Shown here piece by piece: positions 1,717 through 55,369 of a stretch of 64,000 bases of DNA. The number at the start of each line of letters is the position of its first letter. Within the stretch, counting starts at the first letter, position 1. Source of the stretch: Skermanella pratensis (lineage in GTDB: Bacteria; Pseudomonadota; Alphaproteobacteria; Azospirillales; Azospirillaceae); NCBI RefSeq assembly GCF_008843145.1, contig NZ_CP030265.1:2156001-2220000 (forward strand), read 5' to 3'. A program made the translations under genes and the position numbers. Under the pieces are notes generated by a model. That model did no database searches and was not told the DNA's origin. It saw nothing but the letters and a program-made list of their open reading frames with translations.

Positions 1717-2520
1717 TCAATCCGCCTGGGCCTTCCGCGGCATGAAGCCGCGGGCCGGGTTGTAGCCATAGATGGCGGCGGCCAGGAACACGGCGAGCGC
1801 CAGCGCGGTCCAGCCCAGCGACTCCCAGTTGATCTGGACGTAGAGGGCGAACCGGATCAGTTCGACCGCGTGGGTGAACGGGTTGGCGGCGCAGATCTGG
1901 TAGAGCAGCACGCTGGATTCCTGCATCTTCCAGAGCGGATAGAGCGCCGAGGACAGGAAGAAGGTCGGGAAGATCACGAAGTTCATGACTCCCGCGAAGT
2001 TCTCCAGCTGCTTGATGGTGGAGGACAGCAGCATGCCGACCGCGCCCAGCATCAGCCCGCTGACGACCAGGGCCGGCAGCACCGTCAGGTAGCCCAGGGG
2101 CGGCAGGATGATGTCGAAGGCGGCGGCGATCGCCAGGAAGGCATAGACCTGGAGGATCGACACGGCGGTTCCGGCCAGCAGCTTGGCGGTCAGCAGGAAC
2201 CAGCGGGGCAGGGGGCTGACCAGCAGCGTCCGCATGCTGCCCATCTCCCTGTCGTAGACCATGGACAGCGAGCTCTGCATCCCGTTGAACAGCTGGATCA
2301 TCCCGACCAGCCCGGGGATGATGTAGGTCTCGTAGGTGATGTAGGTCTCGTAGGGCGGGATGATCGACAGGCCGAGCGCCGCCCGGAAACCGGCCGCGAA
2401 CACAATCAGCCAGACCAGCGGGCGGACCAGGGCCGCCAGGAAGCGTTCGCGCTGGTGAAGGAACCGCAAAACCTCGCGGGTCACGATGCCGTTGAGGGCG
2501 CGCCAGTAATGCAGGTTCAT
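1717..2520 (-). CDS. ABC-2 type export permease of the PQQ island
   Basis: The 267-residue product has about six hydrophobic segments and the family-typical internal sequence MQSSLSMVYDREMGSMRTLL followed by SPLPRWFLLTAKLLAG, marking an ABC-2 (DrrB/NodJ-like) inner-membrane export subunit. The start at 2520 overlaps the stop of the upstream ATPase gene by four bases (ATGA), so the two are translationally coupled. Permeases of this subgroup are known to accompany PQQ-dependent alcohol oxidation genes; the exported substrate is not established. A longer in-frame extension upstream is antisense-like overlap of the ATPase gene and was not used. Confidence 0.88.
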   Translation of the reverse strand: MNLHYWRALNGIVTREVLRFLHQRERFLAALVRPLVWLIVFAAGFRAALGLSIIPPYETYITYETYIIPGLVGMIQLFNGMQSSLSMVYDREMGSMRTLLVSPLPRWFLLTAKLLAGTAVSILQVYAFLAIAAAFDIILPPLGYLTVLPALVVSGLMLGAVGMLLSSTIKQLENFAGVMNFVIFPTFFLSSALYPLWKMQESSVLLYQICAANPFTHAVELIRFALYVQINWESLGWTALALAVFLAAAIYGYNPARGFMPRKAQAD

Positions 2521-3254
2521 GCGGCCACCTGGTTGATCAGCCGGTGGAAGGTCTGGGTCAGGTTCGCCGAGGCGTTCGTCCGGTTCACCTCGCTGACGCT
2601 GCCGTCGGCCAGGATGCGGCCCTTGTGGATCACGACCACCCGGTCGTCGGCATGAACCTCGTCGATCAGGTGGGTCGCCCACAGCACCGCCATGCCCTGG
2701 GTCCGGCACAGCGCGTGGACATGCTCGACGATGCCGCGGCGGGCCGGGACGTCCAGTCCCACTGTCGGCTCGTCCAGAACCAGCAGGTCCGGTCGGTGGA
2801 GCAGTGCCCGAGCCAGCTCGACCCGGCGGCGGTGGCCGCCGTTCAGCTGGCGCACCTTCTCGCCGTCGCGCTCGGCCATGTCGAGACGCTCCAGCGCCTC
2901 GTCGATGCGGTTGGCGGCATCGCGCCGACCGATGCCGTGCAGGGCCGCGAAGTAATGAAGGTTCTGGCGGACGGTCAGGTCGAGGTCCAGCGTGGGCTGC
3001 TGGAACACCACGCCCATCCGGGCCAGCGCGCGGGTCGGCTGGTCGCGCAGCGCGATGCCGCAGACGCGGATGGACCCGCGCGGCGCCTCGAACAGGCGGG
3101 TGATCAGCGAGAACAGCGTCGTCTTGCCCGCGCCGTTCGGCCCCAGCAGGGCGGTGAACTCGCCCTCGTTCACACGGAAGGACACGTCGTCCAGGGCGAA
3201 GCCTCGGCCATAACCGTAGCTGAGCCCTTCGATCTCCAATGCGGGTGCGGTCAT
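2517..3254 (-). CDS. ABC transporter ATP-binding protein of the PQQ island
   Basis: A 245-residue ABC ATPase. Walker A GPNGAGKTT is at residues 38-46, the Q-loop glutamines at 85-86, Walker B LLVLDEP at 157-163 and the switch His in ATH at 195. The signature segment is LNGGHRRRVE (137-146) instead of LSGGQ; the Ser-to-Asn and Gln-to-His changes are noteworthy but leave the core Gly-Gly. It pairs with the overlapping ABC-2 permease and follows the beta-propeller gene by 57 bases, forming a three-gene minus-strand operon. It should energise export across the inner membrane. The substrate is unknown. Confidence 0.92.
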   Translation of the reverse strand: MTAPALEIEGLSYGYGRGFALDDVSFRVNEGEFTALLGPNGAGKTTLFSLITRLFEAPRGSIRVCGIALRDQPTRALARMGVVFQQPTLDLDLTVRQNLHYFAALHGIGRRDAANRIDEALERLDMAERDGEKVRQLNGGHRRRVELARALLHRPDLLVLDEPTVGLDVPARRGIVEHVHALCRTQGMAVLWATHLIDEVHADDRVVVIHKGRILADGSVSEVNRTNASANLTQTFHRLINQVAA

Positions 3255-3311
3255 CTATCCCTTGCGTTTCCTCCGGGCCCTATTCCGGACCCGCCACGTT
3301 CTTGCATACAT

Positions 3312-4283
3312 CTATCCCTTGATCGCCAATCCCCAAGGATAGCGGCCGACCGGGATCGACTTTAACACGCTCATGGTGCCCACATCGATCACCGACACGT
3401 CGTTGCTGACTCCGTTCGACGTGAAAAGCCGCTTCTGGTCCGGGGTGAACTCCAGGTGCCAGACGCGGCGGCCGACCAGCAGGTACTTCTCCACCTCGAA
3501 GGTCGTGGCGTTGACCACGGCCACGTGGTTGGCCGGGCCGAGCGCCACGAAGGCGTAGCGCCCGTCGTCGGTCAGCTTGACGCCGACCGGCTGGATATTG
3601 TCCTTGGCGACGCCCTTGATCGCGAACTGGACGGTGTGCTCCACCTTCCTGGTCGCCGTGTCGATCACCGACACCGTGCCGCCGATCTCCGCCGACACCC
3701 ACAGCTTCGACCCGTCCCTGGAGAATTCGGCGTGGCGCGGCCGCGCGTCCACCAGGGTGTTGTCGACCAGGGACCGCTTGGCCGTGTCGATCCAGTGGAC
3801 CATATTGGTCGTTTCCGACGTATTGACCGCCCAGTTGCCGTCCGGGCTGACCGCCATGCCTTCCGGTTCCACGCCGACTTCGATCTGGTAGGCCACCTTC
3901 CGCTGCGGAATGTCCACGACCGTCACGACATTGTCGTCCTCGTTGGAGACGAAAAGATGGTTGCCGTCGGGGTGGAGCGCGAACTGTTCCGGATCCTCGC
4001 CGGAGGGAAGGTCGTGCAGGATCTTGCCCGTCGCGACGTCGAGAACCTGGACGGTATCGTCGTCGCTGGCGCAGATGTAAAGAAGGCTGCCGTCGGCGTT
4101 CAGCGTGATCCCGCGCGGGCGCTTGCCGACCTTGATGGTCTTCGTCACCTGAAGGGTGCCGGCATCGATCACGCTCAGCGTATTGTCCTTCTCGTTCGAA
4201 ACGAAAACCGTCTGCCCAAGCGCCGGCCCGGCCAGAACCGCCGTCACGACTGCCGCCGCCGACGCAACCTTCGCGATCTTCAT
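3312..4283 (-). CDS. periplasmic YVTN-repeat beta-propeller protein (PQQ catabolism-associated)
   Basis: The 323-residue product begins with a Sec signal peptide (MKIAKV, hydrophobic stretch, cleavage near PALGQ). The mature part is a chain of YVTN-type repeats (for example VFVSNEKDNTLSVID and LFVSNEDDNVVTVVD), so a seven-bladed propeller is expected. Proteins of this subgroup sit beside quinoprotein alcohol dehydrogenases. A biochemical role is not established; binding of a cofactor, metal or partner protein in the periplasm is possible. The start at 4283 was chosen because the signal peptide begins there; a longer frame to 4409 lacks that feature. It is first in the minus-strand arm, with a 244-base divergent promoter region shared with the cytochrome gene. 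Confidence 0.88.
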   Translation of the reverse strand: MKIAKVASAAAVVTAVLAGPALGQTVFVSNEKDNTLSVIDAGTLQVTKTIKVGKRPRGITLNADGSLLYICASDDDTVQVLDVATGKILHDLPSGEDPEQFALHPDGNHLFVSNEDDNVVTVVDIPQRKVAYQIEVGVEPEGMAVSPDGNWAVNTSETTNMVHWIDTAKRSLVDNTLVDARPRHAEFSRDGSKLWVSAEIGGTVSVIDTATRKVEHTVQFAIKGVAKDNIQPVGVKLTDDGRYAFVALGPANHVAVVNATTFEVEKYLLVGRRVWHLEFTPDQKRLFTSNGVSNDVSVIDVGTMSVLKSIPVGRYPWGLAIKG

Positions 4284-4527
4284 AATGCCTCTTCCCCTAG
4301 AGCTGACGAACGCAGCCAAGGTATCGGCATCGGCGGTGTGCGGCGCATTAGACTTTGGAACCATGCCGGACTGATCCAGTACTTTGGGCAAAAAGCCTTG
4401 TCCACTCAATACTTGGGTAATCTCAGCAGCGGCCGGCTCCTACCATAGTCCAATTAGTCTTCAGGCCCGTCCTGGATATGATCCGCCGCAACGAAGCGAT
4501 CACCGCTGTTTGCGAAAGGACCTGATA

Positions 4528-4959
4528 ATGAACGCTCGGTTTGTCCGGCTCTCCGCCGCCGCCCTTCTGCTGGGCGGCCTCGTTGCCGCCTCGACCGGCG
4601 CCTTCGCCCATGGCGACGTCACTCCCCAGGCGGTCGACACCACCGGTCTGGAGCCGCTGGGCGCGGAATGGCGGGAGAGCAATCCCTACCGCGGCAACGA
4701 GCGGGCCATCGAGATCGGCAAATCGGCGTTCAACCAGAACTGCGCCCGCTGCCACGGCCTCGGCGCCGTCTCGGGCGGCATCGCGCCGGACCTGCGCTTC
4801 CTGGAGCCGGGCGACAGCGGCGACGAGTGGTTCAAGGAGCGGGTGGTCAACGGCGCGATCCGCAACGGCGTGACCTATATGCCCAAGTTCGACGAAGCCC
4901 TGGGACAGGAAGCCCTCTGGACGATTCGCGCCTGGCTCGAAACCGTCGCCGAGCAGTGA
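4528..4959 (+). CDS. pedF: cytochrome c, PedF/c550 type, electron acceptor of the PQQ dehydrogenase
   Basis: A 143-residue exported c-type cytochrome. The signal peptide ends near residue 27 (GAFAHG), the heme-attachment motif CARCH spans residues 72-76, and the likely axial Met is M118 in YMPKF. An AAAGGA-type ribosome binding site (4515-4520) lies seven bases before the ATG. Family members named PedF accompany PQQ-dependent ethanol or 2-phenylethanol oxidation and take electrons from the quinoprotein in the periplasm. It heads the plus-strand arm and is followed eight bases later by the solute-binding-like gene. Confidence 0.88.
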   Translation: MNARFVRLSAAALLLGGLVAASTGAFAHGDVTPQAVDTTGLEPLGAEWRESNPYRGNERAIEIGKSAFNQNCARCHGLGAVSGGIAPDLRFLEPGDSGDEWFKERVVNGAIRNGVTYMPKFDEALGQEALWTIRAWLETVAEQ

Positions 4960-4967
4960 GCGTGTCC

Positions 4968-5825
4968 ATGTCGGGGATGATCGCTTCCTGGTGCCGCGCC
5001 CTGGCCGCCGCCGTCGTCCTCACGGCTGCGGCATCCGCTCCGGCCCTGGCCGTGCCGCTGGACGACGTGGTGGCGCGCGGGATGGTGCGGATCGCCGTCT
5101 ACCGGGATTTTCCGCCTTTCTCCTACCGTGAGGATGGCGTCCTGAAAGGCGCCGACGTCGATCTGGGCAAGGCGATCGGCGAGAAGCTCGGGCTGCGGGT
5201 CGACTTCATGGAGCTGACGGCCGACGAGACCATGGACGACGACCTGCGCAACGCCGTCTGGAAGGGTCCGATCCTGGGCGGCGGCGTGGCCGACATCATG
5301 ATGCATGTGCCGGTCAACCGGTCGTTCGCGCAGCGAAACGATCTGGTCGTCATCTTCGGGCCATACCAGCGGGAAACCTACGCCGTCGCCCGCGATCCCG
5401 GGCGCATTTCGGAAACCGCCGGGTTCCCGGTGTTCCAGACCGAGAAGATCGGGGTCGAACTGGATACCGTTCCCGATTTCTACCTGAGCGGCGCCTTCGG
5501 CGGCCGGCTCGCGGCGAATGTCGTTCACTACACCACCGTCGGGCAGGCGGTCGCCGGCCTGCGCACCGGTGCCGTGGCGGCGGTCTTCGCCCCGTTGAGC
5601 GAGCTGGAGGGAGCGCTGGGTCCCGACCGGGCCAAGTTCCCGATCGGATCGATGCCGGCCCCGAACCTCTCCCCTGCGGAGTGGCCGATCGGCTTGGCGG
5701 TGAAGCACGACGCCCGCGACCTCGGCTACCGGGTCGGGGACATCGTGACCGAACTTCTCGAAAGTGGTAAGGTGACGGAAATCTACCGGAGTCACGGGCT
5801 GACGCACAACCGGCCGGCGCCCTAG
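4968..5825 (+). CDS. quinoprotein-associated periplasmic solute-binding-like protein (MoxJ/XoxJ type)
   Basis: A 285-residue protein with a signal peptide (cleavage near APALA) and a type II periplasmic-binding fold typical of amino-acid ABC receptors (GMVRIAVYRDFPPFSYRED, then YEVDLG-like GADVDLGKAIGEKLG). In this subgroup the protein accompanies PQQ alcohol dehydrogenases and is thought to help activate or load the enzyme rather than feed a transporter; no amino-acid permease lies nearby. The ATG at 4968 was chosen; a GTG six bases earlier (4962) and an ATG at 4977 are alternatives. Confidence 0.85.
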   Translation: MSGMIASWCRALAAAVVLTAAASAPALAVPLDDVVARGMVRIAVYRDFPPFSYREDGVLKGADVDLGKAIGEKLGLRVDFMELTADETMDDDLRNAVWKGPILGGGVADIMMHVPVNRSFAQRNDLVVIFGPYQRETYAVARDPGRISETAGFPVFQTEKIGVELDTVPDFYLSGAFGGRLAANVVHYTTVGQAVAGLRTGAVAAVFAPLSELEGALGPDRAKFPIGSMPAPNLSPAEWPIGLAVKHDARDLGYRVGDIVTELLESGKVTEIYRSHGLTHNRPAP

Positions 5826-5899
5826 ACCGGAATAGAACGGAAGACCCGAAGCGGACGCCCCCACGAAGCATAGGGGCGCATAAGATAGGGAGAGCGCGC

Positions 5900-6715
5900 G
5901 TGCTGAACACCCTTGGGGCAGGCTTGACCGCGGTGGTGCTGGCGACCTCGGCTGCGACCGCCGTCGGCGCCGAGCCCGATCCCCTCCGCTCCGTGATGTG
6001 GGACGACATGCATGCCGTGATCCTGGGCGGCGGGCCGGTCCGGTTCGACGACCGCGTCCTTGTATCCGCCCCGGCGAGTGCCGAGGATGCGCTGAACGTG
6101 CCCGTATCGGTCGATGCGACGGCCCTGGGCACGGTGGAGGAGATCGTCGTCTTCGCCGACATGAACCCGATCCCGCGCATCCTCAACTATCGCCCGGTCG
6201 CAGCCCGCCCGACCATAGCGCTGCGTCTCAAGCTTCAGCAGGCGACCCCGATCCGGGCGGCGGCGCGGACGCCCGACGGTGTCTGGCATGTGGGCGGGGT
6301 GTTCGTCGACGCGGCGGGCGGCGGCTGCACCTCGCCCGCGCTGGCCCACGGCGATCCGACCTGGGAGCGGCATCTCGGCGAGGTGCAGGCCCGCGCCTGG
6401 GCGGGGTCGGGGGCCGGGAGCGACTCCACCCGGCTGCGCCTTCGGGTGCGGCACCCGATGGATACCGGACTGGCGCCGGGCATCCCGGCCTTCTACCTGG
6501 AGGATCTGGCGATCCGGGACGCCGACGGGCGCGAGCTGGCGCGGATCGACAGCTTCGAGCCGGTCGCCGAGAACCCGGTCTTCACCGTCGAGGTGTCGCC
6601 GTCGCCCGGCAGCCGCTCCCTCGGCATCGAGGGCCGTGACAACAACGGCACGGAGATCGAGGCCGAGGTTCCCCTGCCGTGGCGGCAGAGCGCGTTGGCC
6701 CCCGTCCTGCGATGA
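5900..6715 (+). CDS. quinoprotein dehydrogenase-associated SoxYZ-like carrier protein
   Basis: A 271-residue exported protein starting at GTG 5900, with GGGAGA upstream. After the signal peptide (to about residue 24) comes a SoxY-like domain whose conserved cysteine is C143 in GGGCTSP. This resembles the sulfur-carrying Gly-Gly-Cys arm of SoxY but is internal rather than C-terminal. A SoxZ-like beta-sandwich fills the C-terminal half (VRHPMDTG near residue 195). This fused SoxYZ form is known next to PQQ dehydrogenases. It presumably carries a covalent intermediate on Cys143, but no substrate has been established. It overlaps the next gene by four bases. Confidence 0.85.
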   Translation: MLNTLGAGLTAVVLATSAATAVGAEPDPLRSVMWDDMHAVILGGGPVRFDDRVLVSAPASAEDALNVPVSVDATALGTVEEIVVFADMNPIPRILNYRPVAARPTIALRLKLQQATPIRAAARTPDGVWHVGGVFVDAAGGGCTSPALAHGDPTWERHLGEVQARAWAGSGAGSDSTRLRLRVRHPMDTGLAPGIPAFYLEDLAIRDADGRELARIDSFEPVAENPVFTVEVSPSPGSRSLGIEGRDNNGTEIEAEVPLPWRQSALAPVLR

Positions 6716-7656
6716 GAGGCGCGCTCAAGGGTGCCGTCGGGCTGCTGTGCCTGATCCTGATGCCGGCGGATAGCGTCCTGGCCGCCGGGCGGGAGTACGG
6801 GTTGGAGGCGCGCCGGATCGCGGCCGACACCTACGTCTTCGAGGGGGCCGCGGAGCACTTCACCGCCTCTAACGGCGGAAACATCCTCAACTCGGGCTTC
6901 ATCGTCACCGACGACGGGGTCATCGTCATCCAGACCGGCCCCAGCCGCCGCTACGGCGAGGAGATGAGGGCCGCGATCGGCCGGGTGACCTCGCGGCCGA
7001 TCGCCAAGGTCTTCGTCAGCAACCTTCATCCTGACTATTTCCTCGGCTCCCAGGCCTTCGCCGACGTGCCTATCGCCGCCCTTCCCGGCACCATCGACGG
7101 CATCCGCAGCGACGGGCCGGCGGTCACCGAGAACATGTACCGGCTGATCGGCGACTGGATGCGGGGAACCGAAGCGGTCGTCCCGACCGAACCCGTGCTG
7201 GGCGCCACCGTCGTCTATGGCGGGCACAGGCTTCGCCTGATGCCGCTGGACGGGCACACTGCGGCCGATCTCGCGCTGTTCGACGAGACCACCGGCGTCC
7301 TCTTCGCGGGCGGGCTCGTGTTTTCCGACCGGACGCCGACCACGCCGCACGCCGACATCGCGCGATGGCTCCGATCGCTCGACGAACTGGAGTCGCTGGA
7401 TATCGCCGTGCTGGTGCCCAACCACGGCACCGTCCGGTCCGACGAAGCCGCGATCGGCCAGACCCGGGATTACCTGACCTGGCTCGACGCGACCCTGCGC
7501 GGGGCGGCCGAGGCAGGCCTGGACATGAACGAAGTCATGGCGACCGAGATTCCGGCACGATTCGCTGCTCTCAACGTCCTTCGGGAGGAATTCACGCGCT
7601 CGGTGGCGCATCTGTATCCAAAAATAGAACAATCTGTATTGCCGCGCGTGAACTAA
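6712..7656 (+). CDS. quinoprotein relay metallo-beta-lactamase-fold hydrolase, degenerate metal site
   Basis: A 314-residue protein with a signal peptide and a metallo-beta-lactamase fold related to SoxH. It starts at ATG 6712, overlapping the carrier stop (ATGA). The usual HxHxDH metal motif reads SNLHPDY (residues 103-109), so the first His is Asn and the last His is Tyr. The usual bridging Asp in AGDLVF is Gly (AGGLVF, G201), and the Asp expected in VIDTGPS is Gln (VIQTGPS). His182 (GHT) and His238 (PNHG) remain. Relatives are called quinoprotein relay zinc metallohydrolases. Given the lost ligands, this one may be a binding protein or an altered enzyme rather than a normal di-zinc hydrolase. 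Confidence 0.8.
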   Translation: MRGALKGAVGLLCLILMPADSVLAAGREYGLEARRIAADTYVFEGAAEHFTASNGGNILNSGFIVTDDGVIVIQTGPSRRYGEEMRAAIGRVTSRPIAKVFVSNLHPDYFLGSQAFADVPIAALPGTIDGIRSDGPAVTENMYRLIGDWMRGTEAVVPTEPVLGATVVYGGHRLRLMPLDGHTAADLALFDETTGVLFAGGLVFSDRTPTTPHADIARWLRSLDELESLDIAVLVPNHGTVRSDEAAIGQTRDYLTWLDATLRGAAEAGLDMNEVMATEIPARFAALNVLREEFTRSVAHLYPKIEQSVLPRVN

Positions 7657-7674
7657 ACAGGGTCCGAACTGGCT

Positions 7675-7710
7675 CATCCCGCTTCCTTACGGACGCGGGA
7701 TGATTTGCGT
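7675..7710 (+). terminator. stem-loop terminator after the hydrolase gene
   Basis: An 8-bp stem, CATCCCGC/GCGGGATG (7675-7682 with 7695-7702), continues with TCC/GGA around a TTAC loop after one mismatch and is followed by a T-rich tail. It separates the relay genes from the dehydrogenase gene. The rest of the gap to 7919 presumably holds the dehydrogenase promoter, but I see no convincing motif. Confidence 0.5.
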
Positions 7711-7919
7711 TTCATTTATTTTGTACCTCTAAACCTATTGTACTTTTTGCCAATTGCTTGGGACCGGCATGAGGTTAAGCTCCCCGACCAAGGACAAACA
7801 GGCCTGCGGGGCCGGGAAGATGTGGCAAGGCCGGGGCTTGGCTGTCGGGGCGGGGTTGCTCCGGCGGCCGCCCGGTGGCCCGGCGCCGGCGTCGTGTGCT
7901 CTTGAGGGAGGCTGACTTT

Positions 7920-9692
7920 ATGAAGCGAATGAAGACGTCTTATGCCGTGGCGGGCGCCGTTGCCGGCGGGCTCGCCTTCGGTCTGGCGACGGGTGCCGCG
8001 CAGGCCGCCGGCCCGACCAACGAGGACATCCTGAAGGATGCCCAGACTCCCGGCGACGTGCTGACCTATGGCATGGGCCACCAGGGCCAGCGCCACAGCC
8101 CGCTGAAGGCGCTGAACCCCGACACGGTCAAGAAGCTGACCCCGGTCTGGGCCTTCTCGTTCGGTGGCGAGAAGCAGCGCGGCCAGGAGTCGCAGCCGAT
8201 CGTCCATGACGGCACGATCTACGTGACCGGTTCCTACTCCCGCCTGTTCGCGCTGGACGCGCGCACCGGCGAGAAGAAGTGGCAGTACGAGGCGCGCCTG
8301 CCGGAGGGCATCATGCCGTGCTGCGACGTGGTCAACCGCGGCGCCGCCATCCTGGGCGACAAGGTCTATTTCGGCACGCTCGACGCCCGTCTGGTCGCCC
8401 TCAACAAGGACACCGGCAAGGTCGTCTGGAACAAGAAGGTCGCCGACTACCAGGCGGGCTACTCGATGACCGCGGCGCCGCTGATCGTCGACGGCAAGAT
8501 CATCACCGGCAATTCCGGCGGCGAGTTCGGCGTGCTGGGCGCGGTCGAGGCCCGTGACGCCGAGACCGGCGAGGTGATCTGGACCCGGCCGACCATCGAG
8601 GGGAACATGGGGACCCTCAACGGCAAGGAAAGCACCATGACCGGCGTCAAGAACGCCACATGGACGGGCGACCTGTGGCAGACCGGCGGCGGCGCCACCT
8701 GGCTGGGCGGCACCTACGACCCCGAGACCAAGCAGCTTTTCTTCGGCACCGGCAACCCGGCGCCCTGGAACTCGCACCTGCGGCCGGGCGACAACCTGTA
8801 CACCTCGTCCACGCTGGCGATCAACCCGGACAATGGCGAGATCAAGTGGCACTTCCAGACCACGCCCCATGACGGCTGGGACTTCGACGGCGTCAACGAG
8901 TTCATCTCGTTCGACCTGAAGAAGGACGGCAAGACCATCAAGGCCGGCGCCAAGGCCGACCGCAACGGCTACTTCTTCGTGATCGACCGGACCAACGGCA
9001 AGCTGCTGAGCGCCACGCCGTTCGTCACCCAGACCTCCTGGGCGAAGGGCTTCGACCTCGACACGGGCCGTCCGATCTACAACGAGGAGAACCGTCCGCC
9101 GAACCCGATGGACGGCGGCGGCGCCTCGGCCGGGCAGGGCAAGCCGATCTTCGCGGCCCCAAGCTTCCTGGGCGGCAAGAACTGGATGCCGATGGCCTAC
9201 AGCCCGGAAACCGACCTGTTCTACGTCCCGGCCAACGAGTGGGGCATGGATATCTGGAACGAGCCGATCACCTACAAGAAGGGTGCGGCCTATCTGGGCG
9301 CCGGCTTCACCATCAAGCCCCTGTTCGACGACTATATCGGCGCGCTCCGCGCGGTCGACCCGAAGACCGGCAAGATCGTGTGGGAATACAAGAACCCCGC
9401 TCCGCTGTGGGGCGGCGTCCTGACCACGGCCGGCAACCTGGTCTTCACCGGCACGCCGGAAGGCTTCCTGAAGGCCTTCGACGCCAAGACCGGCACGGAG
9501 CTGTGGAAGTTCAACACCGGGTCGGGCATCGTCGGCAGCCCGGTCACCTGGGAGATGGACGGCGAGCAGTATGTCTCGGTCGTGTCTGGCTGGGGCGGCG
9601 CCGTCCCGCTGTGGGGTGGCGAGGTCGCCAAGAAGGTCAAGGACATCAACCAGGGCGGCATGCTCTGGGTGTTCAAGCTGCCGAAGGCCTGA
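7920..9692 (+). CDS. PQQ-dependent alcohol dehydrogenase, methanol/ethanol family, lanthanide-type signature
   Basis: A 590-residue periplasmic quinoprotein with signal peptide (cleavage near AAQAA) and the eight-bladed propeller of the XoxF/ExaA family. Visible landmarks are the vicinal disulfide Cys134-Cys135 (PCCDVVNRG), metal ligand Glu202 (SGGEFG), metal ligand Asn279 (GTGNPAPW), and catalytic Asp321. Asp323, two residues on (WDFDGVNE), is the extra acidic ligand that marks lanthanide-dependent members; calcium enzymes carry Ala or Ser there. It lacks a fused cytochrome domain, so electrons should pass to the separate cytochrome at 4528. GAGGGAGG (7904-7911) is a strong ribosome binding site. 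The natural alcohol cannot be read from sequence. Confidence 0.93.
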
Positions 9693-9732
9693 CGCCCGTC
9701 CAGGATACGGGAAGCAGGTCGGGATGGTTGCG

Positions 9733-9756
9733 GGGGCCGGTGCGAACCGGCCCCTT
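9733..9756 (+). terminator. stem-loop terminator after the PQQ dehydrogenase
   Basis: A perfect 9-bp stem GGGGCCGGT/ACCGGCCCC (9733-9741 with 9746-9754) closes on a GCGA tetraloop. The T tail is short, so termination strength is uncertain. Confidence 0.55.
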
Positions 9757-9863
9757 CCCTGAAGAGCCATGCTTTTGTGACGAGTTCCATCTTGCATCGT
9801 GCCGTAACCCGAAGCACACTCGGCTCCCAGGAAACGCCGCTACAACGAGCGCTATAAGCAGCC

Positions 9864-10529
9864 ATGTGCAAGGTTCTGATCGCGGATGACCATCCGCTGT
9901 TTCGAGACGCCCTGAAGACTGCGCTCTCGCTTTCGGTCGAGGGCAGCCTTCCTACGGAAGCCTCCAACCTTGAGGAGGCGATCGAGGCCATCCGCGCGCA
10001 GGGTGATTTCGACTTGGCGCTGCTCGATCTTTCCATGCCGGGGGTGAACGGCTTCAGCGGGCTGCTCGCGCTCCGCGCCCAGTTTCCGGCCCTCCCCGTC
10101 GTGATCGTCTCCGCGCACGAGGATGCCAAGCTGGTCTACCAGGCGATCGATTACGGCGCCGTCGGCTTCATCCCCAAATCGACCCCACGCGAGCAGATGG
10201 CTGAAGCCCTGCGCACCGTCATCAAGGGCAACGTCTATGTCCCCCCGCACATCCAGCGCGAGGAGCGTACGACGGAGTGCAACGGCCGGGACGACGACGC
10301 GGAGATCGCCCGCCGGATCGCGACCCTGACGGCCCAGCAACTCCGCGTGCTGGAAATGCTCGGCACCGGCAAGCTGAACAAGGAGATCGCGTTCGAGTTG
10401 AACATCGCCGAGACGACGGTCAAGGCCCATGTCTCCGCGATCCTCCAGAAGCTCAAGGTCTACAGCCGCACCCAGGCGGTGGTCTTCGCTTCCAAGCTCC
10501 ATTTCGACAGCTTCCAGGGCGCCCGGTAA
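9864..10529 (+). CDS. LuxR/NarL-family response regulator, probable regulator of alcohol oxidation
   Basis: A 221-residue two-domain regulator. The receiver domain has the acidic pocket DDH (residues 8-10) and phosphoacceptor Asp55 (LLDLSMPG). A GerE-type helix-turn-helix follows (LTAQQLRVLEMLGTGKLNKEIA then ETTVKAHVSAIL). AgmR/ExaE/PedR-type regulators of this architecture control PQQ alcohol oxidation genes in pseudomonads. Its position right after the dehydrogenase makes the same role likely. The cognate sensor kinase is not in the window. Confidence 0.88.
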   Translation: MCKVLIADDHPLFRDALKTALSLSVEGSLPTEASNLEEAIEAIRAQGDFDLALLDLSMPGVNGFSGLLALRAQFPALPVVIVSAHEDAKLVYQAIDYGAVGFIPKSTPREQMAEALRTVIKGNVYVPPHIQREERTTECNGRDDDAEIARRIATLTAQQLRVLEMLGTGKLNKEIAFELNIAETTVKAHVSAILQKLKVYSRTQAVVFASKLHFDSFQGAR

Positions 10530-10720: not shown

Positions 10721-11431
10721 TCAGAACCCCTGTGCGGGAACAACGGCCGTGATGTGCCGGGACGCCGTCATCCGGTCCGCGGCGCGTCGGGGCAGCATCA
10801 TCCTGCTCCGGGAAGGATCCAGGTCGAGGGGCGCCGTCCAGACCTTGGCGAGGCGGTTGCGGATTTCCGGCCGGGTGAGATCGTCGAGCAGGATGCGGTG
10901 GCTTCCGGCGTCGGGAAAGTGGCCGTAATGAATGCCGGTGCGGCTGAAATCCGCGAACAGTTCGATCGAATGTCCGACATCGACGACGATGACGAAGGGA
11001 GGCCAGCCTTCCGAAGAGGGCAGGGCGCGGGCGTAGGTGAGTGCCTGGAGGCGGGCGTCGTTCATCGTGCGCTCCCAGTGCTTGCCGCCCCGGACCGCCG
11101 TGCCGCGCCGGGACTTCAAGGACTGGTTCTTCTGATCGCTGCCCTGCTTCGCCTCCAGCACGAAGCAGCCCCGCTTGTACAGATCGATCCTGCCCGTGCT
11201 GACCGCGCCGTAGGCACGAGGGAACGCCACTTTCCGCTCGAATACATAATGATTGTAGCGGTCGTCGTCGCGCGTGGGATTGGGTCTGGGAACCTGGATC
11301 AAGTCACACAGTTCCGACAGGAACAGTTGGCAGTTCGCGCGCTCTCCCGCGCCGGATGCTTTCCAGCGGATGATGAAGGCTTGGACGGGGTCGGCGATCA
11401 CCGCGGATGCGAACTTCATGAGGGAACCCAT
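10721..11431 (-). pseudogene. N-terminal fragment of a type IIG restriction-methylation enzyme (class I DNA methyltransferase)
   Basis: A 236-residue frame matches the N-terminal nuclease region of large fused restriction-methyltransferases, with the motif GRIDLYKRGCFVLEAKQ giving a D-ExK nuclease site (Asp83, Glu93, Lys95) and the family-typical WPPFVIVVDVGHSIELFADF. Full-length relatives run to roughly 900 or more residues with a methyltransferase and target-recognition domain. Here the match ends at about DLDPSRSR and an unrelated tail runs to a stop at 10721. The gene is therefore a remnant, cut near the hairpin at 10564-10628. The start at 11431 is a guess; ATG 11419 or 11476 are alternatives. 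The upstream 11432-11633 segment is unusually AT-rich and holds no gene. Confidence 0.75.
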
Positions 11432-18432: not shown

Positions 18433-18449
18433 GTTAAGGATCGGAAGGT

Positions 18450-18605
18450 TGCTGCGCGGTTCGTCAGGCTGCTTTATCCCTGGGGCCGATAACCTATTAC
18501 TCTCGGGAGCTGTCCCTGCCGGAACCGTGGTTTCGGTACATGGCACCCACCTGCTTAGGCAGGCCGCAGAGGATAGCAATCACGCCAACGGCCAAGCGGC
18601 TCCTT
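18450..18605 (+). ncRNA. ssrS: 6S RNA
   Basis: The gap between zapA and the cyclo-ligase gene has 6S RNA features: a central segment with CTCGGGAGCTGTCCCTGCC (about 18502-18520) followed by an ACATGGCACCCACCTGC block (about 18538-18554) typical of the 3' side of 6S RNA. The genomic position is the canonical one. 6S RNA binds housekeeping RNA polymerase holoenzyme in stationary phase. The ends given are approximate. Confidence 0.72.
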
Positions 18606-18627
18606 CCACTTCCCTTTATCCGCTGCG

Positions 18628-42102: not shown

Positions 42103-42268
42103 GCCGCCGCGATCCGGAAGGGATGCTTCCTTGCTAATTATCTTGTGCCGTCATGCCGCGGACGCGGAACGGAATTGCGCCGTTGATTTGGCAAAGGTCG
42201 GTAACTAGTATCCGCGCCGGGCCACAACCCCCCAACGGGTTGCAACTATTCTGCAAGGAATAGCCTCC

Positions 42269-47767: not shown

Positions 47768-49987
47768 ATGTCCGAGCCTGCCGCGACAGAAGAAGCTGCC
47801 CGGTCCCGCATGGCCGAGGGACGCCCGTCGGAGGCCGCCGGGATCTACCGCCGCGCCATCGCCGACCGGCCGGACGACTTCACGCTGTACAACAACATGG
47901 CTGCGGCGCTCCGGCGGGCGGGCGACCGGTCAGCGGCGCTGGCGGCGCTGGGACGGGCCGACCGGCTGCTGCCGGGCCACCCGGCCGTGGCGCTCAATCG
48001 CGCGGCGCTCCTCGCTGACCTGCGGCGTCCGGCGGAAGCCCGCGACGTGATCGCCCCCGTGGTCGCCTCCCGCCCCGGCGATGCCCACGCGGCGCTTGTG
48101 CTGGCTGGCGCTTTGGGGGATCTGGGCGACTTTCCCGCCGCCATGGCTACGTACCGGCGCGCGCTCGACCATTCCCCCGACCATGCCGGCCTGCGCCTGA
48201 ACCTGGGCAACCTGCTGAAGCGGACCGGCGACAGGGCGAGCGCGGCGGACTGCTACGGCGCTGTTCTCCGCCGCTGGCCCGATCATACCGGCGCGATGCT
48301 GGCGGCGTCCGCCCTGCTTCGGGAGGACGGGTCGGCGGAGGATGCCGCCGGCCTCTGCCGTGCCGCCCTCGCCCTCTACCCGAACCTGACGGAGGCGCAT
48401 CTGCTGCTCGGCAACCAGGCGCTTTCCGCCGGCCGCGCCGCCGAGGCGGCCTCCCGCTACCGAAGCGCCCTGGCGACCGATCCGGCCCATGGCGGCGCGC
48501 AACTCACCCTCGGCACGGCACTCCAGGAACTGGGCCGCCACGACGAGGCCCGGAAATGCTTCGGCCGCGCCCTGGCGGTCGACCGCCTCGATGCATCCTC
48601 CCGGTTCCGCCGCTGCTTCGCCGAACTGCCGATCATCTACCGCGACATGGGCGAGGTAGACCGCGCCCGGGAAGCCTATGCCAGCCGCCTGGAGGAGCTG
48701 GCCGATCATTACGCCGCCGCCCCGGCGGCCGAACGCGCGGCTGCCGCGGCGGCGGTGGGCGGCAGCCAACCCTTCTACCTGGCCTACCAGGGGCGCTGCG
48801 ACCTGATGCTCCAGACCGTCTACGGCGACCTGGTTTCCGTCCTGATGGCCGCTGGCTACCCGGAGTTCTCCCAGCCGCTGGCTCCCCGGCGCCGGAATGG
48901 CGGACCCCTCAGGATCGGGTTCGTCGCCGGCCATATCGGCCGGCATTCGGCGGTGAACGTCTCGCTGCGCGGCTGGGCGGACGCGTTCGACCCCGCGCGG
49001 GTCGCCCTGTTCTGCTATCACACCGGCCCCGCGTCGGACGACGAGACCACCCGGTTCGAATCGCTTTCGCAGGTTTTCCGCCGAGGACCGGGCAGGGTGG
49101 AGGACTGGGCCGAAGCCATCCGGCGCGACGACCTGGACGCCCTGGTCTTCGGCGATGTCGGCATGGACCCGATGGCGGCACGCCTCGCCGCCCTCCGCCT
49201 GGCACCCGTCCAGGCCATGTCCACCGGCCACCCCGTGACGACGGGCCTGCCGACCATGGACCTGTATCTCAGCTCGGCCCTGATGGAGCCGGCGGGCGCG
49301 CAGGCCCATTATCGCGAGACGCTGGTGCCCCTGCCGAACCTGGGCTACGCGTACCGCCCGCTCGACCCGCCGGCGGTGCCGCTGACCCGGAGCGAACTTG
49401 GATTGCCCGACGGCGCGCCGGTCTTCTGGTGCTGCCAGTCGCTCTTCAAATACCTGCCGTGCGACGACGACCTGTTCGCCCGGATCGCGGCGCGCCTGCC
49501 GGACGCGCTGTTCCTCTTCATCGACTACATGCCGGCGCCGCGCGTCGCGCTCATTTTCCGCCGGCGCCTCGCGGCCGCCTTCGCGCGGGCCGGGCTGGAC
49601 GCCGACCGCCATTGCCGCTTCCTGCCCCAGATGGACCATGCCCGCTTCCACGCCGTGGCAGGGCTGACCGACGTGTTCCTCGACAACCCGTCCTGGTCCG
49701 GACACAACACGGCGCTGGAGGCCTTGCCCCACGGCCTGCCCATCGTCACGCTCCCCGGCGTGCTGATGCGCCAGCGCCATTCCGCGGCGATCCTGGAGAT
49801 GATCGGCATCCGGGAGACGATCGCCTCGTGCCGCGACGGCTATGTCGAGATCGCGGTCCGCCTGGGAAGCGACCGGCGCCTTCGCGCCGACCTGCGCCAC
49901 GCGGTGCGCCGCGCCGCGCCCAAGGCGTTCCACGACTCCGGCGCCGTGCGCGCGCTGGAGTCGGTGCTGGAACGGGGTTCAGCGTAG
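47768..49987 (+). CDS. TPR protein with O-GlcNAc transferase-like (SPY/OGT) C-terminal domain
   Basis: A 739-residue cytosolic protein. About nine TPR repeats fill roughly residues 1-300 (units like SEAAGIYRRAIADRPDDFTLYNNMAAAL and RASAADCYGAVLRRWPDHTGAM). The C-terminal half has the GT41-type glycosyltransferase fold with IGFVAGHIGRHSAVN, MSTGHPVTTGL, FLPQMDHARFHAVAG and DNPSWSGHNTALEALPHGLP. Relatives glycosylate proteins; flagellin or other bacterial targets are possible. Its 3' end overlaps the tonB 3' end by nine bases in convergent orientation. Confidence 0.88.
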   Translation: MSEPAATEEAARSRMAEGRPSEAAGIYRRAIADRPDDFTLYNNMAAALRRAGDRSAALAALGRADRLLPGHPAVALNRAALLADLRRPAEARDVIAPVVASRPGDAHAALVLAGALGDLGDFPAAMATYRRALDHSPDHAGLRLNLGNLLKRTGDRASAADCYGAVLRRWPDHTGAMLAASALLREDGSAEDAAGLCRAALALYPNLTEAHLLLGNQALSAGRAAEAASRYRSALATDPAHGGAQLTLGTALQELGRHDEARKCFGRALAVDRLDASSRFRRCFAELPIIYRDMGEVDRAREAYASRLEELADHYAAAPAAERAAAAAAVGGSQPFYLAYQGRCDLMLQTVYGDLVSVLMAAGYPEFSQPLAPRRRNGGPLRIGFVAGHIGRHSAVNVSLRGWADAFDPARVALFCYHTGPASDDETTRFESLSQVFRRGPGRVEDWAEAIRRDDLDALVFGDVGMDPMAARLAALRLAPVQAMSTGHPVTTGLPTMDLYLSSALMEPAGAQAHYRETLVPLPNLGYAYRPLDPPAVPLTRSELGLPDGAPVFWCCQSLFKYLPCDDDLFARIAARLPDALFLFIDYMPAPRVALIFRRRLAAAFARAGLDADRHCRFLPQMDHARFHAVAGLTDVFLDNPSWSGHNTALEALPHGLPIVTLPGVLMRQRHSAAILEMIGIRETIASCRDGYVEIAVRLGSDRRLRADLRHAVRRAAPKAFHDSGAVRALESVLERGSA

Positions 49988-50805
49988 CGCGAACTGCACC
50001 GGGACGACGAGTTCCAGGCTGCTCCGGTCCAGATCGGCCGGGATCTTGGGCAGGGGCTGGGCGCGCCGGATCATTTCCAGCACCTCCTCGTCCAAGGCGT
50101 CGTGGCCGGAGCTTTTCTCCAGCCGGTACGACAGCACGGTCCCGTCTGCGTCCATGGTGAACCGCAGCAGCGCCGTTCCCTGCTGGCGCATCCGCTGCGA
50201 GGATTGCGGATAGCGCTTGTGCCGGTTCAGGTGCTGGAGCAGCCGCTGCTGGAAGCTCGGCATCACCGAAGACTGCGCCACGGCCCGCGGCCTCGCCGGT
50301 GCGGGCTCGGCTTCCGCGGCCGGCGCGGGAGCGGGCGGCGGAGGTGCTGGGGCCGGCGGCGCCGGCTCGGGCGGACGCGGCTGCTCGACCGGCCTGGGGC
50401 GCGGCGGCGGCGGCTTCTGCCGGGGCGGCTTGGGCGGCGTGACTTCCGGCAGCGCCACTTCCGGCTCGACCTGCGGCGGGGGCTCCTCCTCGGGGGCGGC
50501 TCCGGCGGCGGAGGCTCCGGGATCGGCTCCGGCTCCGGCGGGGGCGGCTCCGGCGGGGGCGGCTCGGGAGGAGGGGGCTCCGGCGGCGGCGGTTCCGGGG
50601 GCGGCGGTTCCGGGGGCGGCGGCGCCGGCTCCTCGACCGCCGGTTCCGGCGGGGGCGGTTCGGGCGGCAGGTCGATCAGGATGGGGCCGGCGACCTCCGC
50701 CGGGGGAGGCGGGGTGTCCAGGGCGAGCACGCTGGCCAGTATGCCGGCGTGGACCGCCAGCACGAAACCGGCGCTCAGGCCCCAGCGCAGGGTATCGGAA
50801 CTCAT
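49979..50805 (-). CDS. tonB: TonB, split by a one-base deletion in a homopolymer
   Basis: The N-terminal frame (from 50805) has the membrane anchor FVLAVHAGILASVLAL and a long Pro-Glu linker with about eight PPPPEP units. It then goes out of frame at PPPRRSPRRR. The second frame restores a normal linker and the TonB C-terminal domain (FQQRLLQHLNRHKRYPQSS, LLRFTMDADGTVLSYRLEKS). Reading the G5 at plus-strand 50492-50496 as G6 joins them; 827 bases is one short of 276 codons. It transduces proton-motive force from ExbBD to the outer-membrane receptor. The break is probably a sequence error. Confidence 0.88.
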
Positions 50806-51248
50806 GGCCGGGCGGCGGCGGGGACGGCCGGGGCCATGCCTTCGAGGCCGACGAGAGCGATCTTGAGGTACCCGGCGGCGCGCAGGTCGTTCATGACGGA
50901 CATCAGGTCGCCATAGTCCACCGTCCTGTCGGCGCGCAGGAAGATGCGCTGTTCGCGGTCGCTCCCGGTCGCCCGGTCCAGCGCCGGCGCCAGCGGCGCC
51001 TCGCCCAGCGCCTCGTCCCCGACGACCAGGGACAGGTCGGCCTGGACGGTCAGGTAGAGCGGCTTGTCCGGCTTGGGCTGGGGCTTGGCGGTGGAGGAGG
51101 GCAGGTCCACCGGGACGTCGACCGTCGCCAGCGGTGCCGCGACCATGAAGATGATCAGCAGCACGAGGATCACGTCGATGAATGGGGTGACGTTGATCTC
51201 GTGGGTTTCGTCCAGGTCGTCGTCGCCCTGGTCCAGCTTGGCGGCCAT
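50802..51248 (-). CDS. exbD: biopolymer transport protein ExbD
   Basis: A 148-residue protein with one transmembrane helix bearing the proton-relay Asp (INVTPFIDVILVLLIIFMV) and a periplasmic TolR-like domain. It starts at 51248, four bases after the exbB stop region, and overlaps tonB by four bases. It energises TonB with ExbB. Confidence 0.95.
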   Translation of the reverse strand: MAAKLDQGDDDLDETHEINVTPFIDVILVLLIIFMVAAPLATVDVPVDLPSSTAKPQPKPDKPLYLTVQADLSLVVGDEALGEAPLAPALDRATGSDREQRIFLRADRTVDYGDLMSVMNDLRAAGYLKIALVGLEGMAPAVPAAARP

Positions 51249-51252
51249 GGTG

Positions 51253-52224
51253 CTACTCCGCCGCCTTGCGCAGGGAAACCATCGCGCGGTCGACATCGCG
51301 CGAGGCGAGGCGCTGAAGCTCCGCCGCCGCGTCCATCAGCAGGGCCTTGTAGCCGGCGATGCCGCGGGCGAACGCATTGTAGATCACGACGGCCGGGATG
51401 GCGGCGACGAGGCCCATGGCGGTGGCGAGCAGCGCCTCGGCGATCCCGGGCGCCACGACCGCCAGGTTGGTCGTCTGCGCCTCGGAAATCCCGATGAAGC
51501 TGTTCATGATGCCCCAGACGGTGCCGAAGAGCCCGACGAACGGAGCCGTCGATCCGATGGTGGCGAGGATGCCGGTGCCCTTCGTCATGCGGCGGCTGGA
51601 GGAGGCGACGAGGCGGTCCAGGCGCGATGCGATGCGGTCTCGCAACCCTGCCTTGTCCATTCCGGCGAACCACAGGTCGTGCTCCGCGACCGCGGCCCTG
51701 ACGAAACCGTGGACCGGGCCGTAGGCCGGGCGGCTGTGCTCGGCGGCCTCGGCCAGCGAACGGGCCGACCCGATCGCGCCGAGCGCCCGGGCGACCCGCC
51801 GCTTGGCGGCGCCAAGTTCGACCGCCTTGGCGACCAGCACGGTCCAGGTCAGCACCGAGGCCAGCGCAAGCCCGATCATGACCGACTTCACGACGATGTC
51901 GGCCGCCATGAACATGCCCCACGGCGACAGGTCGTGGGCTGCCGGACCCGGCGCGGCTTCTTCCATTCCGGCGGCTTCCGCCGCAGCGGGATCCGCCGCG
52001 CCAGGGTCGGTCGCTGCAGGGTCGGCCGCGGCAGGCTCTTCCGCCCCGTCGGGTGCGGGGACGTCCGGGACTTCCTGCGCCGGCTGTTCCTGCGCCTGTA
52101 CCTGCTGTTCCTGTGCGGCCTGCGGCGCCATGGGATTCGGGACCTGGCCCGGCGCGGCCGTGGAAAGGCACATCAGCGATATGATCGTGAGGGGCAGCCA
52201 GCGTAAGGCGCGGGGTGTCGTCAT
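51253..52224 (-). CDS. exbB: biopolymer transport protein ExbB
   Basis: A 323-residue protein. A signal peptide and a Pro/Ala/Glu-rich periplasmic N-terminal extension (to about residue 90) precede three transmembrane helices with the conserved ATIGSTAPFVGLFGTVWGIM. Extended ExbB forms are common in proteobacterial iron systems. The start at 52224 has the best signal peptide; a frame to 52368 exists. It is first in the exbB-exbD-tonB operon. Confidence 0.94.
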   Translation of the reverse strand: MTTPRALRWLPLTIISLMCLSTAAPGQVPNPMAPQAAQEQQVQAQEQPAQEVPDVPAPDGAEEPAAADPAATDPGAADPAAAEAAGMEEAAPGPAAHDLSPWGMFMAADIVVKSVMIGLALASVLTWTVLVAKAVELGAAKRRVARALGAIGSARSLAEAAEHSRPAYGPVHGFVRAAVAEHDLWFAGMDKAGLRDRIASRLDRLVASSSRRMTKGTGILATIGSTAPFVGLFGTVWGIMNSFIGISEAQTTNLAVVAPGIAEALLATAMGLVAAIPAVVIYNAFARGIAGYKALLMDAAAELQRLASRDVDRAMVSLRKAAE

Positions 52225-52294
52225 GCTTCGTTCCCCGGTTGGGGTCCCGGACAGTTGGATCGGTGATTCATCCATAGGCGACGCAGTCCAGTCA

Positions 52295-52321
52295 TGCAAA
52301 TGATTTTGCGAGTCATTTGCA
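52295..52321. promoter_or_regulatory. Fur-like palindrome between exbB and the siderophore receptor
   Basis: Nine-base arms TGCAAATGA and TCATTTGCA surround a nine-base centre (TTTTGCGAG). The pattern resembles two overlapping alphaproteobacterial Fur boxes (GCAAAT...ATTTGC). It lies mid-way in the 166-base divergent region and could repress both transcription units under iron sufficiency. Confidence 0.65.
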
Positions 52322-52390
52322 GAAAGGGATTGCGGCAGTTTGACGTCGATAATAAGACTTAGTAGCACTTATTGGAGAAAGTTGTATTTC

Positions 52391-54520: not shown

Positions 54521-54566
54521 CCATAAGGGCCATCGATCCGGCAACCGATCTGGAGGAGGCTTCACC

Positions 54567-55247
54567 GTGCAGATCCATATTTCCGACGTGCTGACCGCCG
54601 ATCAGGTGGCGCATTGCCGCGCCGTCCTGGAATCAGCCGCCTGGGTCGATGGCCGCGTCACCGCCGGCCACCAGTCGGCCAGGACCAAGAAGAACCTTCA
54701 GGTTCCGGAGAGCGCCCCGGAGCTGCCGGGCCTGCGGGACATGATCCTGCGGGCCCTGGATGCCAACCCGGTGTTCATGTCGGCCACCTTGCCCGAGCGC
54801 GTGTTTCCGCCGCTGTTCAACCGCTACGACGCCGGCATGACGTTCGGCGCCCATGTGGACAACGCGATCCGGCCGCTTCCGGGAGGGGGCGGCCGGATCA
54901 GGACCGACATCTCGGCGACGCTGTTCCTCAGCGGGCCGGACGAGTACGACGGCGGTGAGCTGATGATCGAGGACACCTACGGCGCCCATTCGGTCAAGCT
55001 GCCGGCCGGCCACATGGTGGTCTATCCCGCGTCCAGCCTGCACCGGGTCACGCCGATCACCCGCGGCAGCCGCTGGGCCTCCTTCTTCTGGATACAGAGC
55101 ATCATCCGGGACGACGCGGCGCGGACGACCCTGTTCGATCTGGACATGGCGATCAACGGCGTCGCGGCGGACATGCCCGACCATCCCTCGGTCGTGTCGC
55201 TGACCAACTGCTACCACAACCTGATCCGGCGCTGGGCGGAGGTGTGA
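54567..55247 (+). CDS. PKHD-type Fe(II)/2-oxoglutarate hydroxylase (PiuC/YbiX family)
   Basis: A 226-residue dioxygenase starting at GTG 54567 with GGAGGAGG upstream. The facial triad is His96, Asp98 (FGAHVD) and His159, with Arg169 for 2-oxoglutarate. Genes of this family (PiuC/YbiX) regularly follow iron-regulated siderophore receptors. The natural substrate is not established. Confidence 0.94.
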
Positions 55248-55369
55248 AAACAAGCCCTCGGGCCGCAATCCGAGTCAGCGGATCGAAACCATATCGACAA
55301 GTATGGGTTGGAACCCGATGATGGGCGTGACGATTCCGTTACCGGCCCGCATGGGGAAAGAGACTGTAG

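Follow-up and report, generated by a model that had tools for sequence, protein, structure and literature searches.

The window analysed here, a stretch of 64,000 nucleotides of the Skermanella pratensis genome (contig NZ_CP030265.1, positions 2,156,001 to 2,220,000), contains at positions 1717-10529 an island of nine genes, which almost certainly constitutes a cluster of the ped/exaF type, serving periplasmic alcohol oxidation by a lanthanide-type pyrroloquinoline quinone (PQQ) alcohol dehydrogenase together with a cytochrome c550, a PedG-like protein, the PedA2BC proteins and a regulator. Two further members of the island, a fused SoxY-SoxZ-like carrier and a metallo-beta-lactamase (MBL)-fold protein, form a pair whose occurrence follows lanthanide-type enzymes, and not vicinal disulfides or PQQ dehydrogenases at large. 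The finding stands as a sound interpretation of a cluster type that is already known; the present analysis adds counts in two genome samples, a comparison of vicinal cysteines and a change in the metal site of the MBL protein. Lanthanide-dependent alcohol dehydrogenases are widespread, and both the carrier cysteine, Cys143, and the three-residue change of the metal site are directly testable points. Three papers are drawn on below for parts of their contents, namely PMC12997753, in which ped/exaF-type clusters for lanthanide-type PQQ alcohol dehydrogenases are reviewed, PMC11237559 and PMC6839425.

Based on family profile searches, all nine genes named in a preliminary description of this DNA were located within the island. 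Seven of the nine proteins exceed a curated NCBIfam cut-off, and the binding protein and the LuxR protein match general families only. The window genome (G000; genomes are given G numbers and loci L numbers here) is a single contig of 5.87 Mb. The PedH/ExaF-type dehydrogenase (7920-9692, plus strand) reaches 811.4 bits against TIGR03075 (cut-off 480.05), and its best PDB matches are 6zcv (4.9e-273, 911 bits) and 6zcw (8.1e-273, 910 bits), presumably both structures of PedH, followed at a distance by the quinoprotein ethanol dehydrogenase 1flg (743 bits) and XoxF entries (375 and 369 bits). At the aligned metal site the enzyme reads WDFDGVN, with the lanthanide-coordinating aspartate two residues after the catalytic one; this position is aspartate in the lanthanide type, whereas the calcium enzymes have serine there (ExaA type) or alanine (MxaF type). 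Judged by this motif, the window dehydrogenase is a lanthanide-type enzyme, and its lanthanide dependence is predicted. It also contains a vicinal Cys-Cys. Two more PQQ dehydrogenases of the genome, at G000:C1:2423133-2424662 (L003) and 2603628-2605238 (L004), show the unusual metal motifs WDWDEVA and YDYDGVS, the former enzyme being devoid of vicinal cysteines.

The other genes of the island agree with this assignment. A PedF-like cytochrome c550, the probable electron acceptor of the dehydrogenase, is encoded at 4528-4959 (plus strand; TIGR04494, 203.6 bits over a cut-off of 122). It is followed by a PedG-like periplasmic binding protein (4956-5825, plus strand, start codon uncertain), which matches only SBP_bac_3 (PF00497, 1.8e-11), with TIGR01096 below its cut-off; its position and its homologues in other clusters agree with the name, and these homologues occur in 10 carrier loci, the same 10 that have PedF homologues. 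On the minus strand lie the genes for a PedA2-like YVTN beta-propeller protein (3312-4283; TIGR03866, 524.4 bits, cut-off 287.3), a PedB-like ATP-binding cassette (ABC) ATPase (2517-3254; TIGR03864, 362.7 bits, cut-off 302.25) and a PedC-like ABC-2 permease of the lanthanide ABC system (1717-2520; TIGR03861, 430.7 bits, cut-off 241.35). The fourth component, PedA1, is encoded about 2.1 Mb from the island at G000:C1:17616-18662 (TIGR03863, 480.7 bits, cut-off 413.6), and the PedA1A2BC set is thus complete in the genome. The LuxR-type response regulator (9864-10529, plus strand; PF00072 and PF00196), whose best NCBIfam match is ErdR at 209.8 bits, below the cut-off of 390, is a candidate AgmR/ErbR-like regulator of the cluster, the link to AgmR being drawn from gene position. 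With a lanthanide-type dehydrogenase, PedF, a PedG-like protein and PedA2BC side by side, the cluster is therefore placed in the ped/exaF type. The closest named relatives of the carrier, among the eight loci found, are those of Skermanella stibiiresistens and S. aerolata, which have the same nine genes in identical order.

The ABC pair had earlier been regarded as an exporter in a product pathway. In P. putida, however, the relatives PedA1A2BC are required for growth at low lanthanide levels, without them PedH-dependent growth calls for about 100-fold more lanthanum, and the deficient strain still grew on alcohol oxidation products (PMC6839425, from the part drawn on here). These genetics and the family match together speak against a product exporter, and the pair is therefore most readily assigned to the lanthanide system, although the exporter-like ABC-2 fold of the permease (PF01061) sits uneasily with the import proposed in the same paper.

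The island is also not without described counterparts, contrary to the preliminary description, in which its substrate and chemistry appeared undescribed: NCBIfam has named models for these families, and PMC12997753 and PMC11237559 take up both the cluster and its carrier/hydrolase pair. The ped cluster of Pseudomonas putida KT2440 (PP_2662-PP_2683), as presented in PMC12997753, shares pedA2BC, pedF, pedG, the lanthanide-type PedH, a LuxR-type regulator, a SoxYZ-like carrier (PP_2677) and a SoxH-like MBL protein (PP_2678). In contrast to KT2440, pedA1 is unlinked in the window genome, the calcium-type SGNN motif (ExaA/PedE) occurs in none of its four best dehydrogenases, and the metal site of the MBL protein is altered (PP_2678 itself was not part of the sequence comparison). 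The exaF locus of Methylorubrum extorquens AM1 is likewise flanked by PedF- and PedG-like genes (PMC12997753). In the soxYZ-S2 and soxYZ-S4 islands of PMC11237559, a fused SoxYZ adjoins a PQQ alcohol dehydrogenase (S2) or xoxF (S4), near soxH; the window genome has one locus resembling each, namely the island and L059.

Then, does the carrier follow PQQ dehydrogenases in general, or one type of them? This was counted in 289 genomes of the class of the window genome (alpha sample) and in 340 genomes of the class of the Ralstonia genome G289 (second sample), with WD[FY]DG[VI]N as the strict lanthanide signature. Carrier matches with internal stops correspond to separate SoxY and SoxZ genes and were excluded, which leaves 24 genomes with a fused carrier in the alpha sample (26 over the cut-off minus 2) and 37 in the second (51 minus 14), where matches were taken at E 1e-30 or better and weak or cut carriers would be missed. 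A dehydrogenase at E 1e-100 or better was present in 71 of the 289 alpha genomes. The strict signature was found in 20/24 carrier genomes versus 7/265 others in the alpha sample (Fisher p 2e-21), and in 27/37 versus 7/303 in the second (p 2e-25). Note that these p values ignore shared ancestry, and that at most four dehydrogenase candidates were scored per genome and not all of them read, so that the signature counts are lower bounds in all columns. All 20 alpha carrier genomes with a dehydrogenase match show the signature, as do 27 of the 33 such genomes in the second sample. At the level of loci, it is present in 24 of the 26 with a readable dehydrogenase, the window's own included; the two others, L061 and L064, are close copies of each other. 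Consequently, the co-occurrence of carrier and PQQ dehydrogenase, whose absence the preliminary description had set as its refutation, holds in both classes.

The vicinal cysteines do not separate the carrier from the non-carrier groups. Cys-Cys is present in 50 of 51 strict lanthanide-type dehydrogenases (the 51st was not readable), in 53/53 quinohaemoprotein enzymes and in 8/8 of the calcium type, and 51 of these 53 quinohaemoprotein enzymes belong to genomes that have no fused carrier.

The carrier gene (5900-6715, plus strand, GTG start) gives a full-length fused match to TIGR04557, the quinoprotein-associated SoxYZ-like family (214.1 bits, cut-off 140, positions 1-226 of 226). Its product contains exactly one cysteine, at the residue 143 named earlier, placed in a GGC arm between the two domains. 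This residue is kept in 75/75 distinct carriers and is the sole cysteine from window residue 27 onward in 69 of them. Residues 32-143 of the carrier model superpose on SoxY residues 1-110, so that Cys143 falls on SoxY Cys110. The structure comparison, in which the part outside residues 51-140 was barely tested, returned chains of SoxY and none of SoxZ, which does not speak against a SoxZ domain; by sequence profile, SoxZ is matched as well as SoxY. As in the SoxYZ of thiosulfate oxidation, both domains and the cysteine are present. However, the window carrier is one fused chain, the arm is tethered at both ends, whereas it ends the SoxY chain in thiosulfate oxidation, and no other Sox gene is among the island's nine; the cut-offs for true SoxY (52.5 bits, below 125) and SoxZ (21.9, below 76) are both missed. 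The carrier, which is probably periplasmic, does not seem to need the thiosulfate-oxidising Sox system, because in 16 of the 24 alpha carrier genomes nothing else matches SoxY or SoxZ at E 0.001. The window genome itself also encodes a separate SoxY-SoxZ pair (L055), which was left out of the carrier alignment, as was the window's second copy (L058). Regarding the earlier proposal that Cys143 binds a compound covalently, the conservation in 75/75 carriers and the superposition on the sulfur-carrying cysteine of SoxY make such a role plausible.

The MBL-fold partner, related to SoxH, is encoded directly downstream (6712-7656, plus strand) and scores 427.6 bits against TIGR04558, quinoprotein relay zinc metallohydrolase 1 (cut-off 300). 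The carrier stop and the MBL start share four bases, ATGA, at 6712-6715. Among 37 carrier loci, which include the window's own and some near-copies, an MBL gene of this kind lies on the carrier's strand in 29 and within 200 bases in 23, in either gene order; gene starts predicted in the other loci are approximate, and several of the remaining eight stretches end at a contig end. Conversely, a fused carrier is present in 21 of the 22 alpha genomes with a TIGR04558 match of at least 150 bits, and in the 22nd (G229) a carrier match below the cut-off lies at a contig end. In the second sample 11 genomes have an MBL protein above the family cut-off, every one of them with a fused carrier, and many lower-scoring MBL proteins, partly from other tree branches, occur in carrier-less genomes.

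A second carrier with an MBL protein is found in the window genome at L059, close to a set of genes called xoxF-xoxG-xoxJ-like here because of the motif, their position and the clusters that they have in common with other carrier loci. The MBL protein of L059 belongs to the second relay family (TIGR04559, 363.3 bits, cut-off 280) and has canonical ligands. This locus also encodes a rhodanese-like CXXCW protein (TIGR03865, 187.0 bits, cut-off 128.05). The rhodanese-like cluster recurs in 11 of the 37 carrier loci, and the two members scanned both match TIGR03865 (CXXCW); a thioredoxin and a DsbD-like protein occur in one carrier locus, L067. Another TIGR03865 rhodanese-like CXXCW gene (197.1 bits) was observed away from both carrier loci at G000:C1:2366059-2366529 (L179, L182), near an ABC ATPase-like gene.

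In the window MBL protein the metal-site residues are N104-H106-D108-Y109-H182-G201-H238, which means that three of the seven canonical residues are replaced (H116N, H121Y and D221G). The canonical dinuclear zinc pattern, HxHxDH with H196, D/C221 and H263, is thus changed to N-x-H-x-D-Y, H, G, H in a protein whose structure model has a predicted local distance difference test score (pLDDT) of 93.8. Mono-zinc MBL proteins of subclass B2, such as CphA and Sfh-I, have Asn116 with Asp120, Cys221 and His263. The window protein has Asn116, Asp120 and His263 as well, but differs from them in Tyr at 121 and Gly at 221. All seven canonical residues are present in 53 of the 66 MBL sequences examined, and the three replacements occur together in eight, which come from Skermanella, genome G051, Ralstonia and genome G401 and are as little as 42% identical. 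Ordinary zinc hydrolysis by the window protein, by which the preliminary description had the bound product released, is doubtful because these three residues are lost. In Ralstonia (L044:10711-12604, also L045 and L046) tandem MBL genes follow the carrier, both non-canonical in different ways: the first copy reads N-H-D-Y-H-G-H, and in the second Glu replaces D120, Gly replaces D221 and H263 is missing.

The trees do not establish that the altered site arose only once. The eight sequences form one clade (support 98/91) in the tree of all columns, from which L058 and one unrelated MBL protein (L048:14103) were left out, but they split in two when the ligand segments are removed, as they do in a smaller tree built without the three ligand columns, and the approximately unbiased (AU) test gives no decision (p 0.296). 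Literature searches returned no earlier description of the altered site. Conceivably, although we would not expect it, this lineage has a separate subtype of MBL partner, with a metal centre rebuilt as a unit, and this protein, not being an ordinary zinc hydrolase, may use one metal or a metal harder than zinc, or may bind the carrier non-hydrolytically, to process the Cys143 adduct for the lanthanide enzyme.

What the pair does has been posed as an open question in PMC12997753. We tentatively suggest that it serves as an accessory thiol-adduct unit for the lanthanide enzyme, perhaps removing reactive sulfur species. The carrier would present the Cys143 thiol on its arm, take up a small adduct and pass it to the MBL partner, which would remove it; the adduct would most likely be a reactive sulfur species that otherwise attacks the PQQ/lanthanide site, rather than an alcohol oxidation product. 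Covalent loading, the loading agent and the action of the MBL protein are what we infer here. The idea of protecting the PQQ site from sulfur has been put forward in PMC12997753 and PMC11237559, both of which report that thiosulfate inhibits methanol growth in Hyphomicrobium. Protection from sulfur nucleophiles appears to fit better than an obligatory relay of products, because it would explain the SoxY ancestry, the absences described below, the presence of thiol- and rhodanese-like genes nearby at some of the loci, and how little effect was seen in random barcode transposon sequencing (RB-TnSeq) without lanthanides (PMC12997753).

Several points weigh against this proposal. Six of the 33 carrier genomes with a dehydrogenase in the second sample lack the strict signature among those read: G364 (MxaF-like AGV motif), G413 (SGNN, with one of four matches read), and G454, G458, G492 and G529 (other motifs). 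In 4/24 alpha carrier genomes (G130, G155, G181 and G191) and 4/37 of the second sample the search gave no match to a dehydrogenase, and some carrier genes, e.g., in L047, L048, L062 and L065, have no dehydrogenase in the fetched stretch. The rhodanese-like gene is present in under one third of the carrier loci, and the two copies of the window genome lie at the xox locus and a third place, outside the island. In the same RB-TnSeq data from P. putida (PMC12997753) these genes had minimal effects on short-chain alcohols, though lanthanides were left out. The analysis identified no substrate, no adduct on the carrier or activity of the pair is reported in the portions of the cited literature on these clusters used here, and the separate SoxY-SoxZ pair of the window genome leaves room for a link with sulfur oxidation. 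Because carriers occur without a dehydrogenase at the locus or in the genome, clients other than the dehydrogenase are possible, and the carriers of L047, L048, L062 and L065 may serve another one. An MBL gene adjoins the carrier in three of these four loci, and downstream of the L062 pair come one ABC ATPase-like gene and two that look like membrane-protein genes.

The preliminary description had instead proposed a relay of the oxidation product. Spelled out chemically, Cys143 would capture the aldehyde in a thiohemiacetal, oxidation would turn this into a thioester, and the MBL protein would hydrolyse it, as a protein-bound analogue of the glutathione formaldehyde route. MBL-fold proteins such as glyoxalase II do hydrolyse thioesters, and the L059 protein has a weak match to GSH_gloB, though at 29.1 bits far below the cut-off. 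The tight link of the carrier to alcohol dehydrogenases, its conserved single thiol and the canonical site of the 53 MBL proteins would suit such a relay too. However, calcium-type PQQ alcohol dehydrogenases produce the same aldehydes, yet the carrier tracks the metal type, and the MBL protein beside the window dehydrogenase is among those with an altered site. In addition, 14 genomes, seven per sample, have a strict lanthanide-type dehydrogenase with no fused carrier detected, namely G027, G028, G071, G131, G140, G175 and G252 in the alpha sample and G322, G439, G456, G468, G484, G535 and G569 in the second (completeness not given for the latter). One of them is G175, of the window's family and with completeness 100, whose otherwise matching ped cluster has PedA2BC, PedF, PedG, a PedH-like enzyme (79% identical), an SGNN-type enzyme and a LuxR regulator; no carrier and no MBL gene were found in this genome. 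Therefore, an obligatory relay is unlikely, and the product relay as a whole is a doubtful explanation.

Equally hard to favour is a role in maturation, in which the pair would help the dehydrogenase to acquire or regain its vicinal disulfide or, as suggested in PMC12997753, load PQQ or the lanthanide. The window dehydrogenase has the Cys-Cys, neighbouring thiol-redox genes occur in some carrier loci, and the pair accompanies lanthanide-type enzymes. However, the vicinal disulfide was rejected as an explanation of the carrier distribution, since Cys-Cys is equally present in quinohaemoprotein and calcium-type enzymes, a comparison that leaves cofactor loading untouched, and disulfide formation has no obvious need for an MBL protein. 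That the pair consists of remnant sulfur-oxidation parts kept by operon inertia, with no role in alcohol oxidation, is very improbable: the SoxY/SoxZ ancestry and the separate pair in L055 would agree with it, but the cysteine is conserved over the 75 distinct sequences, carrier and MBL gene are paired in both gene orders, and carriers are kept in small assemblies of 0.8-1.8 Mb, e.g., G023, G241, G142 and G232 (71-92% complete).

Some other features of the window were also observed. Next to the island, a 232-residue protein encoded at 10724-11419 (minus strand) matches MmeI-like type IIG restriction enzyme-methyltransferases in their N-terminal part alone (PF20464; PADLOC model positions 4-215 of 1136), and is either a remnant or a stand-alone N-terminal domain. 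A 6S RNA is located at 18446-18606 (plus strand; RF00013, 74.3 bits, cut-off 46.4), and a serC leader motif at 42215-42268 (plus strand; RF00517, 45 bits, cut-off 35) lies directly 5' of a gene for 387 residues that starts at 42269. At 49982-55843 the translations indicate an apparent second ExbB/ExbD/TonB set beside a TonB-dependent receptor (52523-54517), which is also adjoined by a PKHD-type 2-oxoglutarate-Fe(II) hydroxylase (54567-55244). In a genome with two lanthanide-type enzyme loci, this region is possibly a metal-uptake locus.

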